NCBI GenBank assembly: GCA_017937095.1
Contig: JAGBEG010000017.1
Span: 124,001 to 188,000, forward strand
Direction of reading: 5' to 3'
DNA: 64,000 bases
Source: Roseburia sp.
Lineage (GTDB): Bacteria > Bacillota > Clostridia > Lachnospirales > Lachnospiraceae
The notes beneath the pieces were generated by a model. It saw only the letters and a program-made list of their open reading frames with translations. It searched no databases and was not told the origin of the DNA. Positions 37,708 to 42,906 of the stretch are shown here, in pieces (position 1 is the stretch's first letter; each line of letters opens with the position of its first letter). The translations under genes were made by a program, and so were the position numbers.

Positions 37708-38496
37708 ATGAAAGCGTTTGTGTCGTGCCTTAGCACGGATAATTATTTAAACGGGATTCTGGTGTTGTATCAGAGTCTTCTGGACACAAATACAACATAT
37801 CCGTTCTATTGTCTGGTGTCCAGTCAGGTGAGCGAGGAGACAAGGAGCAGTCTGGAAAAAGTGGGAATCCATGTCATTGTGCGTGACGCGGTGTCCGTGT
37901 CTGAGATTACCAACCGCCCGATGGAGGGATGGGATTACACCTATTTCAAGTTCCGTCTGTTCGAGCTGACGGAGTTCGAAAAGCTGGTATATCTCGATGC
38001 GGATATGATCGTGATGCAGAATATTGATGCGCTGTTCGGCGAGAAGGCAATCGCGATCTGTCAGGACGGCTACCAGTTTACCGGAATCAAGGAGAAGGAG
38101 AACTGCGGCTGCAACTCGGGGCTGATGGTGATAGAACCGGATGTGGAATTGTTCCACAAGCTCGTTGCAGAACTTCCGTCAGCCATGGAGCGCGGTCTTT
38201 CCGGGGATCAGGAGGTCTTAAATCTCTTTTTGGATGGAAATACATGGCTTCCTGCGTACTACAACATGACGCCGAACATGATCGATAAGGCGTGCTACCG
38301 CGAGAAATATTTTGATTTCCGCTATAAGGATATCCGGGTCGTTCATTTTATCTGGAAGATGAAGCCGTTTTTTACAACGAAAATCGGTTTGAAGCGCTTT
38401 TTCTCCATGCTGACGCGCCTGCATTTTTACGAGATCAGGGCGAACCGGTATTATTATAAGGAAATGAAGAAAATCATGAGCAGGCTTGCGGCGTGA
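37708..38496 (+). CDS. GT8-family glycosyltransferase (glycogenin-like)
   Basis: 262 residues. AFVSCLSTDNYLNGILVLYQSL and the metal-binding DxD in YLDADMIVMQNIDALF place it in family GT8, with the conserved NSGLMVIEPD later. Such enzymes add glucose or galactose to glycogenin-like or surface acceptors. ATG at 37708 follows GGAGA; upstream codons overlap trmD. It sits between trmD and rplS, where it is not usually found. Confidence 0.85.
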   Translation: MKAFVSCLSTDNYLNGILVLYQSLLDTNTTYPFYCLVSSQVSEETRSSLEKVGIHVIVRDAVSVSEITNRPMEGWDYTYFKFRLFELTEFEKLVYLDADMIVMQNIDALFGEKAIAICQDGYQFTGIKEKENCGCNSGLMVIEPDVELFHKLVAELPSAMERGLSGDQEVLNLFLDGNTWLPAYYNMTPNMIDKACYREKYFDFRYKDIRVVHFIWKMKPFFTTKIGLKRFFSMLTRLHFYEIRANRYYYKEMKKIMSRLAA

Positions 38497-38506
38497 CCAC
38501 AAGGAG

Positions 38507-38675
38507 AACTGTTACGGTGTTTCGCAACAGTTTGACCCAGGACTTTGCACTTGCTGCAAAGTCCGTGAGGATATGCAAATTTAGCTAGGAGGGAATCTGC
38601 CCTTCGCCGCAGGCGATTTTAAATGGGCAGATTCCGTAACAGTTCCGCCGGAAGGCGGAACTGTTACGAAACACC
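38507..38675 (+). other. Highly structured intergenic element (nested hairpins) between the GT8 gene and rplS
   Basis: Three local stems: GGACTTTGCA/TGCAAAGTCC (38540-38549 with 38555-38564), GGAATCTGCCC/GGGCAGATTCC (38592-38602 with 38625-38635), and the 14-bp GTAACAGTTCCGCC/GGCGGAACTGTTAC (38636-38649 with 38654-38667, GGAA loop). An outer 9-bp pair GGTGTTTCG (38516-38524) with CGAAACACC (38667-38675) encloses them. AACTGTTAC at 38507-38515 can also pair with GTAACAGTT (38636-38644) or AACTGTT locally with AACAGTT (38526-38532), so alternative folds exist. No T-tract follows. Function unknown. Confidence 0.7.
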
Positions 38676-38696
38676 CGGAAAAGTTGTAAAAATCGC

Positions 38697-38725
38697 TTTA
38701 CATTTGAAACAAGTTATGGTAAGAT
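38697..38725 (+). promoter_or_regulatory. Putative rplS promoter
   Basis: TTTACA (38697-38702), 17-bp spacer, TAAGAT (38720-38725), giving a leader of about 70 nt before the ATG at 38804. Confidence 0.6.
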
Positions 38726-38803
38726 ACAAAAGTTGTGAGTAAATAGATGGTCCTCTGTTACGGGAAGCGTATTAAGAACATCCAAATATCAGGAGGTCAC
38801 AAA

Positions 38804-39157
38804 ATGAACGCAAGTGAGATTATTAAGAGCATTGAAGCAGAGCAGTTAAAGGCTGAGGTTCCGGAGTTCCGCGTTGGCGATACCGTTAAGGTTTACGGTA
38901 AGATCAAAGAGGGAAACCGTGAGAGAATCCAGGTATTCGAGGGAACTGTCATCAAGAGACAGGGCGGAAGCAACCGCGAGACCTTCACCGTAAGAAAGAT
39001 TTCCAACGGTGTCGGCGTAGAGAAGACCTGGCCGTTACATTCTCCGAACGTTGAGAAGGTAGAGGTTGTTCGTCAGGGTAAGGTAAGACGTGCAAAGTTG
39101 TTCTACTTAAGAGACCGTGTCGGCAAGAAGGCAAAGGTAAAAGAGCTTGTAAAATAA
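38804..39157 (+). CDS. rplS: 50S ribosomal protein L19
   Basis: 117 residues, standard length. [19 protein letters not shown], then [21 protein letters not shown], are typical. AGGAGGTCACAAA precedes the ATG at 38804. It is separated from trmD by the GT8 gene and the structured element, with its own promoter and terminator. Confidence 0.98.
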
Positions 39158-39170
39158 TTGCAGCGCAGGG

Positions 39171-39215
39171 AGAGCCTGACAGCATTTCAAAGAGATGCTG
39201 CCGGGCTCTTTTTTG
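39171..39215 (+). terminator. Rho-independent terminator after rplS
   Basis: AGAGCC and AGCAT on the left pair with ATGCT and GGCTCT on the right around a TTCAAAG-like loop, followed by TTTTTT. CTCTATAGGAA follows at 39216. Confidence 0.85.
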
Positions 39216-39281
39216 CTCTATAGGAAATATCATATTGCTGCAAATCGTGAAAGTGCGGATTCCATTTTTACTCTATAGGAA
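39216..39281 (+). repeat. Two copies of CTCTATAGGAA in the rplS downstream region
   Basis: The 11-mer CTCTATAGGAA occurs at 39216-39226 and 39271-39281, and a third copy at 35496-35506 follows the khpA terminator. Each copy follows a T-rich stretch. Exact function unknown. Confidence 0.75.
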
Positions 39282-39342
39282 CTTGCAAAAACATGCACAA
39301 AAATTTTGTGAAAATAACTGTAAATATATACAATATATGGTA

Positions 39343-39374
39343 TTGACAAAATTTTTGAGGGGGGGGGGTAAAAT
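39343..39374 (+). promoter_or_regulatory. Promoter with a ten-G spacer tract, candidate phase-variable switch
   Basis: TTGACA (39343-39348) and TAAAAT (39369-39374) are separated by 20 bp, of which 39359-39368 are ten consecutive G residues. The optimum spacing is about 17 bp, so loss of two or three G would create a near-ideal promoter; the present length should be weak. It lies 72 bp before the surface protein gene at 39447. Slipped-strand changes are expected in long G tracts. Confidence 0.7.
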
Positions 39375-39446
39375 AGTATATAGATTTTTGAGAAAAAGCT
39401 CGAAAATACAGAAAAATCAATTCCATAAAATGGAGGTACAAAAGTT

Positions 39447-40190
39447 ATGAAGAAGAAACTATTGACAGCCGTATTGAGTGTGGTATTGTGTCTTGGGTCA
39501 GCAATGACTGTTATGGCAGCGCCCAGCCCGACATCCCAGAATACCTATCAGGCACAGACGGGATCTGTAGACACGTATGTTGCAGCAGCGCCGAGTGAGG
39601 TGAAAGCGGCGTATGAAAGCTATCAGGCAGCGACAGCAGCCGGTGACGAGCAGGCTTACAAGTCATTTATTAAGGCACAGACCGGCGCGGATGTGGATAA
39701 GGTAGTAACATCCGGCATTGTTGATGTAGTAAGACCGAACGTTTCCGATGCACAGCTTGCAAAAGGTATCGTTGTTACATTTCCTGCGGCGGGAATCCGG
39801 GCAAACAGTCAGGTTATCGTACTTCACTTAAACAATCAGGGAGTATGGGAACAGCTTCCGGTTTCTGCGGTAGGTGACGGAACGATTTCAGCTACATTTA
39901 CATCTTTCTCACTTGTATTTTATGCAGAAGTAGAGACAAGCGTTTCCGAACATTATCATCAGTATAGTGAGTTCACAACAGCGCCTACGGCTGAAACATG
40001 GGGATACACCACACATTACTGCGAGTGTGGTGACATCTACTATGACAACTATGTTGCTCCGACAAGCCAGAGCGCAGCGGCAGTTACTTCTCCGAAGACC
40101 GGAGAGAGCAATATGCCGATGGTAGTTCTTTTCGCAGCAGCGGCAGCAGCCGGTGCGGCAGTATGTGTAAGACGCAAGGTAAATGCGTAA
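39447..40190 (+). CDS. Secreted surface protein with SPKTG sortase signal
   Basis: 247 residues. A signal peptide ends near residue 24-25 (SAMTVMAA). The middle is Ala/Ser/Thr-rich; a segment EHYHQYSEF, then HYCECGDIYYDN, has His/Cys residues and resembles repeats in Lachnospiraceae wall proteins. The C-terminus has SPKTG at residues 215-219, then a hydrophobic segment and RRK, a sortase-sorting signal of the (S/P)PxTG type recognised by Clostridial class B sortases. A class B sortase gene is two genes downstream. GGAGG precedes the ATG by 10 bp. Expression may switch through the G tract in the promoter. Confidence 0.85.
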   Translation: MKKKLLTAVLSVVLCLGSAMTVMAAPSPTSQNTYQAQTGSVDTYVAAAPSEVKAAYESYQAATAAGDEQAYKSFIKAQTGADVDKVVTSGIVDVVRPNVSDAQLAKGIVVTFPAAGIRANSQVIVLHLNNQGVWEQLPVSAVGDGTISATFTSFSLVFYAEVETSVSEHYHQYSEFTTAPTAETWGYTTHYCECGDIYYDNYVAPTSQSAAAVTSPKTGESNMPMVVLFAAAAAAGAAVCVRRKVNA

Positions 40191-40213
40191 AAGAGTGTTT
40201 TAGGACAGAATCT

Positions 40214-40250
40214 GGATCGCCGGACTTTTAAAGCCCGGCGATTCCTTTTT
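40214..40250 (+). terminator. Rho-independent terminator after the surface protein gene
   Basis: GGATCGCCGG pairs with CCGGCGATTCC (40216-40223 with 40235-40242 as perfect core), followed by TTTTT. Confidence 0.88.
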
Positions 40251-40310
40251 GAATAAGGAAAGGCGATGCCCCGGGAAAGCAGGGCGCCTGTGTGTTTGGG
40301 AGAGACAAAC

Positions 40311-41360
40311 GTGAGTAAAAGAGTATGCGCGGACGGTTTAAAGTATGGAAAGGGCAGGCGTGCGGTTCTTAAAATGATAACAGTCGTATTGCTTCTGGTT
40401 GCAATTTTGGCGGGAACGGTATATAGTATTTGGTGGTCTGGCAGGAGCAGTCTGCTCAAAGATAGCAGCAATCCGTGGTCCGGAAGCATCAATTCGGATG
40501 CGGATGAGATCGTGGCGGAGAAAATTGACGGTGTGACATATTATTATCAGCCTGATATCCTGAATATTCTCTGTGTCGGAATCGACAAGGAAGGGGAACT
40601 GACAGGGGTCGATTACAGCGGAAACAGCAGAGGACAGTCCGATGCGATTTTCCTCGTGTCGCTTGATTTGAAAAAGAAAGACATCCGGGTGATTACGGTG
40701 CCCCGGGATACGGTTGTGAATCTGGAAATGTATGATGTGCTGGGGAATTACATGGGAAAGACTGAGGGACAGATTGCGCTCCAGTACGCTTACGGGGATG
40801 GTATGCAGCAGAGTGCAGAGTTGGTATCAAAGCGCGTGTCGGAGATTTTCGGAACGATACTGATCAGCGGTTATGCTGTTTTGGATCTGGAGTGTATCCA
40901 GATTTTGAATGACATGATCGGCGGGGTGGATGTGACGATGGATCAGGATTATACGATGCTGGATGAGGCTTTTGTAGAAGGGGAGACGGTGCATCTGACG
41001 GGCGAACAGACGATGCATTTTGTGCGGAACCGTGATACGGAGATTCCGGCGAGCGCGTATACCAGACTTAACAGGCAAAAGCTTTATCTGGAAGCATTTG
41101 CCAGACAGGCAAAGCACGCGGTGAAAGAGAATATCGGATTGCCCGTGAAGATATTGGAAGAAATCAAAAACTACATGGTGACGGATATGAGCGCGTCACA
41201 GATACTTTATCTGGCGACCGAAGTGGTGAATTATGATTTTTCGGGCGACGGTATGTATATACTGCAGGGCGATATTGTAGATAACGACGGATACGAATGG
41301 TTTTATCCGAATCAGGATGCGCTGAATGCGTTGAAAATTCAGTTGTTTTATACGAAATAA
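40311..41360 (+). CDS. LytR-CpsA-Psr (LCP) family protein
   Basis: 349 residues from a GTG at 40311. A cytoplasmic basic stretch and a signal-anchor (about residues 23-43) precede the LCP domain: ILCVGIDKE, SDAIFLVSLDLKKKDIRVITVPRDT and FVRNRDTEIPASAYTRLNRQ. LCP proteins transfer undecaprenyl-linked polymers to peptidoglycan. ATG at 40266 also has a ribosome-binding site (AAGGAAAGG), so the start is uncertain. Neighbours are a sorted protein and a sortase. Confidence 0.9.
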   Translation: MSKRVCADGLKYGKGRRAVLKMITVVLLLVAILAGTVYSIWWSGRSSLLKDSSNPWSGSINSDADEIVAEKIDGVTYYYQPDILNILCVGIDKEGELTGVDYSGNSRGQSDAIFLVSLDLKKKDIRVITVPRDTVVNLEMYDVLGNYMGKTEGQIALQYAYGDGMQQSAELVSKRVSEIFGTILISGYAVLDLECIQILNDMIGGVDVTMDQDYTMLDEAFVEGETVHLTGEQTMHFVRNRDTEIPASAYTRLNRQKLYLEAFARQAKHAVKENIGLPVKILEEIKNYMVTDMSASQILYLATEVVNYDFSGDGMYILQGDIVDNDGYEWFYPNQDALNALKIQLFYTK

Positions 41361-41380
41361 GAGAAAATAAGAGGATGCAT

Positions 41381-42256
41381 ATGAAATCAAATAACAGGTG
41401 GAGAACCTTTGTGGAGAAAGTAAAGACGGACGCAGCGTGCAAAAAACGTTTTTTACAGATTGTGATTGCCGTACTTCTCGTGATCGCCGTCTGCTGCATT
41501 GGCTATGCGGTGCATTATTATCGTGCATTGGACACGCAGGAAGCGCTGTATGAGGAACTGCGCGTGACGGAAGCACAGGAGGTCGTGATCGAGGCAGATG
41601 TGACGGAACAGGAGGAAACGGAGCAGGAGACCTGTGAAGCCGTCTATGATTTTGACGCGCTCCGGGAAGAAAATGCAGACATTTACGCGTGGATTACGGT
41701 TCCGGGAACGCAGGTCGATTATCCGGTACTCCAGAGCGAGACGGACAATTATTATCTGGAACACAATCTGGACGGCTCTTCGGGATATCCGGGATGCCTT
41801 TATACAAACGAGTGCAATCTCAAGGACTTTTCGGATTACAATACGGTCATTTATGGACATAATATGAAGGACGGCAGTATGTTCGGCTGTCTGCATTCCT
41901 ATGAGGATGGGGAATTTTTTGAGGAGAACCGCCACATTATCGTTTATACGGAAGAAAAATGTCTGACCTATGAAATCTATGCGGCGGTGAAGTTCACGGA
42001 TGTTTATATTCCGGCTTATTATGATTCTGCGACTGCTTCCGGCAGGGATGCGTTTCTTGCGGCTGTGAGGGAAGAGAGCGCCGGGAGCGAGGTCTCGCAT
42101 ATTGCAGAGGATATCGAAATCCAGCCGGAGGATAAGATTATCACGCTCTCTACCTGTGTGAACGGCGAGCGGGCAAAGCGCTGGCTGATTGTCGGCAGGC
42201 TGGTGAGTGAGATGCCGTATTCGGATTCTGACGGCACCACTGGTAAGGAAAATTAA
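41381..42256 (+). CDS. srtB: Class B sortase
   Basis: 291 residues: N-terminal membrane anchor (about residues 24-44), then the sortase barrel. NTVIYGHNMKDGSMFG has the catalytic His, TLSTCVNG the catalytic Cys, and RAKRWLIVGR the Arg; the class B sequence TLSTC is intact. It likely anchors proteins with (S/P)PxTG signals, such as the upstream SPKTG protein. ATG at 41381 follows AAGAGG; an ATG two codons upstream is an alternative. Confidence 0.93.
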   Translation: MKSNNRWRTFVEKVKTDAACKKRFLQIVIAVLLVIAVCCIGYAVHYYRALDTQEALYEELRVTEAQEVVIEADVTEQEETEQETCEAVYDFDALREENADIYAWITVPGTQVDYPVLQSETDNYYLEHNLDGSSGYPGCLYTNECNLKDFSDYNTVIYGHNMKDGSMFGCLHSYEDGEFFEENRHIIVYTEEKCLTYEIYAAVKFTDVYIPAYYDSATASGRDAFLAAVREESAGSEVSHIAEDIEIQPEDKIITLSTCVNGERAKRWLIVGRLVSEMPYSDSDGTTGKEN

Positions 42257-42262
42257 ATTGCG

Positions 42263-42312
42263 AAGCCACATGGTTTGTGTTAAAGTAGAACAGGAATCAT
42301 GTGGCTTTTTTT
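42263..42312 (+). terminator. Rho-independent terminator after the sortase gene
   Basis: AAGCCACATG (42263-42272) pairs with CATGTGGCTT (42298-42307), then TTTTT. The T-tract ends just before the signal peptidase ribosome-binding site. Confidence 0.8.
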
Positions 42313-42324
42313 CGGAGAGATAAA

Positions 42325-42906
42325 ATGCGTAGACGTAGAAGCGGATTGAATTTTGGAAGACAGAAGAAGAAAGTAAATATGGCAATTGTGCGGGAAGTGT
42401 GCGTCTGGGCAGTTGAGATTCTGATTACACTTCTTGTTGCGTTTACACTGGTATATTTTATTGGATTACGTACAAGTGTAGTTGGACAGTCCATGGCGGA
42501 GACTTTGCAGAGCGGGGATGAGATTCTGGTCAACCGCTTTATCTATAAGGTGACAAACCCTAAGCCGAATGATATTATCGTATTTTTGCCGAACGGAAAT
42601 GAGAAATCGCACTATTATGTCAAACGGGTCATCGGCGTCCCCGGGGATACGATCCAGATTAAGAATGGGGATGTCTACGTGAACGGTGAGCTGTTCGAGG
42701 AAGAAGTCAGCGTGGCGTCGATTGAGGATGCCGGACTTGCCGGGGAGGAGATCACATTAGCGCAGGACGAGTTCTTTGTGCTCGGCGATAACCGCAACAA
42801 CAGCGAGGACAGCCGCTATGCAAATATCGGCAACATCAGGAAGGAATATATTATAGGAAAAGCGTGGTTTATCGTGGCTCCGTGGGGAGATTTCGGTTTT
42901 TTGTAA
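42325..42906 (+). CDS. lepB: Signal peptidase I
   Basis: 193 residues with one N-terminal membrane segment. S56 in VVGQSMAETL is the catalytic serine and the lysine in YVKRVIGVPGD completes the dyad; GDNRNNSEDSR is the conserved Box E. It removes signal peptides of exported proteins, such as the SPKTG surface protein. GGAGAGATAAA precedes ATG at 42325. Confidence 0.95.
   Translation: MRRRRSGLNFGRQKKKVNMAIVREVCVWAVEILITLLVAFTLVYFIGLRTSVVGQSMAETLQSGDEILVNRFIYKVTNPKPNDIIVFLPNGNEKSHYYVKRVIGVPGDTIQIKNGDVYVNGELFEEEVSVASIEDAGLAGEEITLAQDEFFVLGDNRNNSEDSRYANIGNIRKEYIIGKAWFIVAPWGDFGFL

Follow-up and report, generated by a model that had tools for sequence, protein, structure and literature searches.

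The window (the whole stretch of 64,000 nucleotides that was analysed) contains, downstream of rplS, a gene for a predicted surface protein followed on the same strand by the genes of an LCP family glycopolymer transferase, a class B sortase and a signal peptidase I. The coordinates of these genes and of the elements which precede the surface-protein gene are presented in Table 1. A sequence-only reading of this DNA had placed TTGACA and TAAAAT 20 bp apart with a spacer ending in ten G, an arrangement which we confirmed at 39343-39374. It had also taken the gene at 39447 for that of a secreted SPKTG protein, in agreement with the signal peptide recognised by eye and with the match of the anchor to NCBIfam TIGR01167 (20.3 bits vs a cut-off of 15.9). 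The curated family models for a class B sortase and for an LPXTG-like substrate are both reached. The sortase gene is given from its ATG at 41381; a longer open reading frame from 41297 also matches Sortase. The host, described in that reading as a gut Clostridium, belongs to the Lachnospiraceae and not to Clostridium in the strict sense.

Table 1. Features of the surface-protein locus, in window coordinates
Feature	Position	Strand	Basis or remark
Terminator hairpin of rplS	39170..39215	+	Fold of 39150-39225, z-score -5.1; bounds by eye
A+T-rich stretch 5' of the -35 element	39297..39342	+	Strongly conserved with G004 (alignment)
Weaker candidate promoter, TTGTGA-17-TACAAT	39306-39334	+	Within the A+T-rich stretch; promoter scan
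-35 element, TTGACA	39343..39348	+	Sequence; TTGAC invariant across the aligned six homologous modules
Promoter spacer, 20 bp	39349..39368	+	Sequence; ends in ten G
Ten-G tract adjoining the -10 element, proposed slippage site	39359..39368	+	
-10 element, TAAAAT	39369..39374	+	Sequence; commonest -10 among 52 family matches (14/52)
Ribosome binding site, GGAGG	39432..39436	+	
Surface-protein gene, 247 aa	39447..40190	+	ATG 39447; signal peptide, SPKTG anchor, hydrophobic stretch, basic tail
SPKTG anchor motif of the surface protein	40089-40103	+	
Terminator-like hairpin 3' of the surface-protein gene	40214..40250	+	Fold of 40185-40260, z-score -2.5; bounds by eye
LCP (LytR-CpsA-Psr) family glycopolymer transferase	40266..41360	+	PF03816, 73.3 bits; TIGR00350
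Class B sortase	41381..42256	+	TIGR03064, 170 bits (cut-off 153.75); PF04203
Signal peptidase I	42301..42906	+	TIGR02227; PF10502

The surface-protein gene is probably a transcription unit of its own, because hairpins stand both after rplS and after the gene itself, although a simple terminator scan listed neither of them. Read-through from rplS is unlikely given the strong terminator hairpin in between, which would isolate the surface-protein gene from upstream transcription. Riboswitch control of the kind known from Clostridioides difficile was considered and rejected, as an Rfam search of 38500-42400 returned no match up to E = 1. Further upstream, the intergenic stretch between a glycosyltransferase gene and rplS (38495-38690) has an apparent inverted repeat (aactgttacg... 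and ...cggaactgttacgaaacacc) and may be a repetitive element.

Apart from the ten-G tract, no G/C run of the window exceeds six: there are 173 runs of length 4, 29 of 5, two of 6, none of 7-9 and the single one of 10. Runs of at least ten were found in 8 of 60 simulated windows under an order-1 model and in 2 of 60 under an order-3 model (8/60 and 1/60 in a repeat). A plain eight-G run is not unusual, as 44 of 100 dinucleotide shuffles had as many eight-G matches. The joint motif (TTGACA, 3-15 bases, eight or more G, TANNNT; both strands) was absent from all 60 simulated windows under either model and is present once in the window. The whole genome (3.89 Mb) contains five G runs of at least eight and four of at least nine; among the latter only that of the window follows TTGACA at promoter distance, and the other three lie inside predicted coding genes for sugar- or polysaccharide-type enzymes.

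Of the remaining runs, one of 11 G is in frame within a hexapeptide acetyltransferase gene, at codons 14-17 (L047:753-1556, minus strand; G000 contig C10:195620), and is a candidate coding-frame contingency locus of the same genome. A nine-G tract is found near the 3' end of a WbbJ-like acetyltransferase gene (L053:1493-2446, minus strand; C15:13911), a position as in C-terminal phase variation, and another within a DegT/DnrJ aminotransferase gene (L059:1261-2427, minus strand; C24:13809). An eight-G run (L040:1510-1517, minus strand; C4:74248) is found in a short repeat that separates an ABC ATPase gene from a membrane-protein gene (apparent permease) downstream of it.

Recurrence of the promoter architecture and its downstream genes

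The distribution of the architecture was determined with the pattern TTGACA, 3-15 bases, eight G and TANNNT in 397 genomes of the family, drawn evenly from 334 genera and including the genome of the window. There are 52 matches in 37 of these genomes, compared with none for the pattern read backwards and two with C in place of G. In a sample of the phylum, 4 of 299 genomes match, the genome of the window among them. Most spacers of the family matches (45/52) are 16-21 bp long and the remaining seven 11-14 bp, within an allowed range of 11-23 bp; the peak lies at 19 bp (17/52), with an uncertain lower side, as the minimum of eight G also excludes short spacers. The sequence-only reading had expected an optimal 17-bp spacer after removal of three G, which is doubtful in view of the clustering of the relatives' spacers at 18-20 bp. 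The -10 element is TAAAAT, TATAAT or TAGAAT in 33 of the 52.

The search was repeated for shorter tracts (five or more G, followed by TADAAT) in 200 genomes, where tracts of 5 to 11 G occur 11, 0, 4, 6, 2, 7 and 2 times, respectively, with one backwards match. Based on the gap at six G and the excess of long tracts, the long tracts are a separate population and not the tail of a decay.

A similar pattern is found in at least 118 stretches of a species-representative collection, 80 of them among the matches listed; these matches come from Clostridia, Bacilli, spirochaetes, Saccharibacteria and other groups. The spacers of 125 promoters among the matches listed are mostly 15-20 bp long, with peaks at 16 and 18-19 bp. 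Five loci of this collection (L151, L160, L180, L191 and L228) have near-identical promoters of the form TTGACAAAAATGC-G8 to G10-TARAAT; those of L160 and L180 precede similar secreted proteins, and the other three have no open reading frame by our rule.

Within the genus (62 genomes), a relaxed pattern gave 21 rows, or 20 distinct tracts, in 15 genomes, and three backwards matches. Thirteen of the 20 tracts have spacers of 15-21 bp and seven have spacers of 10-14 bp, which are outside the promoter range. Most of the 32 sampled genus runs of at least nine G lie outside such promoters, since only four fit the promoter at up to three mismatches (none in the opposite orientation) and six at up to four (vs one in the opposite orientation).

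Concerning the genes which follow these promoters, 32 of 47 first downstream genes of the family set encode a signal peptide, against 2 of 24 that follow ordinary TTGACA-17-TATAAT promoters (Fisher p 1e-6), according to a crude rule of our own making that was identical for all sets. Of the 52 matches, 50 were retrieved (one of the other two lies at a contig edge), and three of these 50 had no open reading frame by the rule, which gives the 47 genes. The ordinary promoters are from 31 of the 37 genomes with matches; 32 promoters were found and 24 first genes scored, including one (L324) taken from the genus search, without which the count is 2/23. Among the other open reading frames of the fetched loci, which may include spurious ones, 117 of 429 have a signal peptide. 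In the wider set from the species collection, 72 of 100 first genes among the matches listed encode secreted proteins or lipoproteins.

The Pfam families of the 47 first genes comprise BspA-type leucine-rich repeats (five), ABC ATPases (three), Big_2 (three) and solute-binding proteins (two), and the remaining matches belong to many single families. Two species of one genus (G093 and G410) have similar ABC transporter ATPase genes after poly-G promoters with 11 and 9 G (L122 and L123).

Homologous modules and tract length

We inspected nine modules of surface-protein, LCP and sortase genes in the genus, including that of the window, and the LCP and sortase genes are confirmed by Pfam in all nine. 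A poly-G promoter with 8 to 13 G is present in six and missing in three (G007, G027 and G059); this is not an unbiased rate, because the modules were picked by homology and two of them (G003 and G032) also for a nearby G run that was already known. The closest relative (G004; surface protein 79% identical) has TTGACA-9-G11-TAAAAT. Its sequence is nearly identical to that of the window over 39297-39374, and the stretch between the promoter region and the conserved rplS terminator has diverged; the two tracts differ by substitutions and both spacers are 20 bp long. The modules of G006 and G058, with surface proteins 35% and 44% identical, both have G8 and a spacer of 18 bp. In G003 the promoter (G13, spacer 21 bp) precedes the sortase, LCP and surface-protein genes in this order, and in G032 (TTGACG, G11, spacer 20 bp) the LCP, surface-protein and sortase genes. 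The poly-G promoter thus heads the module whichever gene stands first.

In 22 of 25 loci with weaker homologues of the surface protein, the 260 bp that precede the gene contain no G/C run of at least six; in two of these 22 (G003 and G032) the promoter lies at a greater distance and heads the module. The tract length differs among the homologous loci (8, 8, 10, 11, 11 and 13 G), a comparison across six different species with partly different gene orders and not across isolates.

Among 210 matches compared pairwise, there is no clean difference in length alone with well-conserved flanks in a promoter. The nearest such pair (L317 and L325) has G8 vs G7 in spacers of 10-11 bp, which are too short for a promoter. 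A scan of viral contigs (IMG/VR) found 11 stretches with promoters consisting of TTGACA, a G tract and TADAAT, and flank patterns were used for five of these viral loci (four patterns), one of which found a further near-identical copy. Contigs with such promoters are L274, L277, L278, L271, L275 and L338. The tract is G12 in L271 and L275; in L338 it is 15 bp long and interrupted by two T. The L338 contig is 99.7% identical to L271 over 7.3 kb with the tract changed, which is weak support for switching. The window's own flanks have no match in the viral contigs.

Proposed mechanism and competing explanations

In our preferred reading, to which we assign a probability of roughly 0.7, the hexamers form a sigma-A promoter with a slippage-variable spacer, which would make the expression of a class B sortase substrate phase variable at the level of transcription. 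The ten G would be part of the spacer, and transcription would start about 65-70 bp upstream of the start codon of the surface protein. Slippage during replication would add or remove G in the tract, and the changed count would alter how far apart the -35 and -10 elements lie, as well as their relative helical phase, and hence the rate of initiation. Promoter strength would then differ from cell to cell in a heritable and reversible way, and the outcome would be a bet-hedged display of the sortase-anchored surface protein. We infer from the sequence that the promoter is active, that its tract slips within populations and that the effect is ON/OFF or graded. What favours the phase-variable promoter proposed in the sequence-only reading is the recurrence of a G- and orientation-specific architecture in the family, its enrichment before genes of secreted and surface proteins, and the variation in the number of G among the promoters that head homologous modules in six species of the genus; the part of that proposal which did not hold up well is the 17-bp optimum. 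Since 19 bp is the commonest spacer length among the relatives, the optimum for a G-rich spacer may lie near 18-19 bp, with 18-20 bp functional, and the 20-bp state of the window may be active or intermediate. Such longer working spacers could perhaps be explained by the A-like form of poly(dG).poly(dC), which takes up less length per base pair.

The promoter could also be real and its tract effectively stable, with the G-rich spacer setting a constitutive strength. The 20-bp spacer shared with the closest relative despite different G counts, the single main peak of the family spacers at 18-20 bp and the lack of a clean pure-length pair among the 210 compared matches are consistent with this explanation. 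We nevertheless consider it unlikely: G runs of such length are unstable in many bacteria, the length spectrum has its gap at six G and its excess of long runs, and the homologous modules differ in their G counts. Such runs are also unstable in the gut bacterium Bifidobacterium breve (PMC9187656).

A further alternative is a fixed function of the G run as the operator of a CsoR/RcnR-like or MerR-like regulator, without a slippage switch. MerR-type promoters have long spacers, which those of 19-20 bp resemble, CsoR/RcnR operators contain G tracts, and a binding protein would be equally compatible with the strict bias towards G in the non-template strand (52 vs 2). Against such an operator, the tract varies from 7 to 13 G across loci, its left flank is unconserved, and no dyad is seen by eye; the downstream genes are diverse and mostly encode secreted proteins, not one evident regulon. 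As the main reading it was rejected, since neither a conserved length nor symmetric flanks (symmetry judged by eye) were found, and we regard it as quite improbable.

Transcription might instead start from the TTGTGA-17-TACAAT promoter upstream, which would place the G tract in the leader, where it would act through the RNA or be neutral. This candidate has the optimal 17-bp spacer, matches at 9 of 12 positions and is kept in the closest relative as TTGCCA-17-TACAAT, but neither the G006 nor the G058 locus, both of which retain the poly-G promoter, shows it on inspection by eye, and the TTGACA/TANNNT frame around G tracts recurs throughout the family, so that we judge a start there very unlikely. 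Chance or an assembly artefact can hardly account for the locus: homopolymer lengths in databases call for caution (PMC9187656), and the exact number of G may be one or two more or fewer than ten, but the same promoter is found in several independent genomes of the genus, and both the reversed pattern in the 397 genomes and the joint motif in the simulated windows gave no match.

If the slippage-variable promoter of the preferred reading is extended to the Lachnospiraceae, and to a less known extent to other gut bacteria, promoters with poly-G spacers would be widespread, would confer phase variation on secreted proteins, lipoproteins and sortase-anchored proteins, and may have a spacing optimum of their own at about 18-19 bp; we give this wider proposal about an even chance. 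It would amount to a slippage 'phasome' acting on transcription, as a counterpart of the invertible promoters of gut bacteria. Should poly-G spacers switch surface proteins across this major gut family, homopolymer lengths, which short-read assemblies smooth over, could underlie differences between strains in adhesion, immune recognition and phage sensitivity.

Comparison with known phase-variable systems

Slippage of a homopolymer in the spacer between the -35 and -10 elements is the accepted mechanism of phase variation for porA and fetA of Neisseria (PMC5320596, PMC3899988). Like these promoters, that of the window precedes a surface gene, has a G or C homopolymer between the two elements and has the spacer length as its variable (PMC5320596, PMC3899988). 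The features of a porA-type switch which are found at the locus are a homopolymer of slippage-prone length between recognisable elements (G10, TTGACA/TAAAAT), a product with the traits of a surface structure (signal peptide by eye, SPKTG anchor) and a tract length that differs among homologous loci. The likeness is known at the level of sequence, from which length variation inside a species and its effect would follow by inference. In contrast to Neisseria, the host is a Gram-positive member of the Lachnospiraceae, the targets are sortase-anchored or secreted, the tract adjoins the -10 element and the spacers peak at 19 bp.

In Treponema pallidum, poly-G tracts in the promoters of tpr genes, which encode outer-membrane proteins, are linked to phase variation (PMC7864442). 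The likeness concerns this link of poly-G, promoter and phase variation and not the placement relative to the -35 and -10 elements, and the host is a spirochaete.

SrtB of C. difficile is a class B sortase. Its substrates resemble the surface protein of the window, which has an SPKTG anchor and a class B sortase encoded nearby. The PPKTG and SPKTG proteins CD2831 and CD3246 of C. difficile have switched expression; CD2831 is anchored by SrtB, of which CD3246 is a further reported substrate (PMC4591827). Unlike the locus studied here, both are controlled by c-di-GMP riboswitches.

In the papers found, among them PMC11868660, phase variation in gut bacteria is mostly described as inversion of DNA. 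Among the best-ranked open-licence literature, we found no description of G tracts in promoter spacers of Lachnospiraceae or other Clostridia. The B. breve authors mention in passing other G tracts in promoter spacers (PMC9187656). Their main subject of interest here is the G-tract switching of sortase-dependent pili, which resembles the present locus in its gut Gram-positive host, its G tract and its sortase-dependent surface structure (PMC9187656). The B. breve switch studied differs in being a frameshift within the coding sequence and not a change in a promoter spacer. Switches by spacer homopolymers are already known from Neisseria, and it is the family-wide recurrence of such promoters before secreted proteins that would be new.
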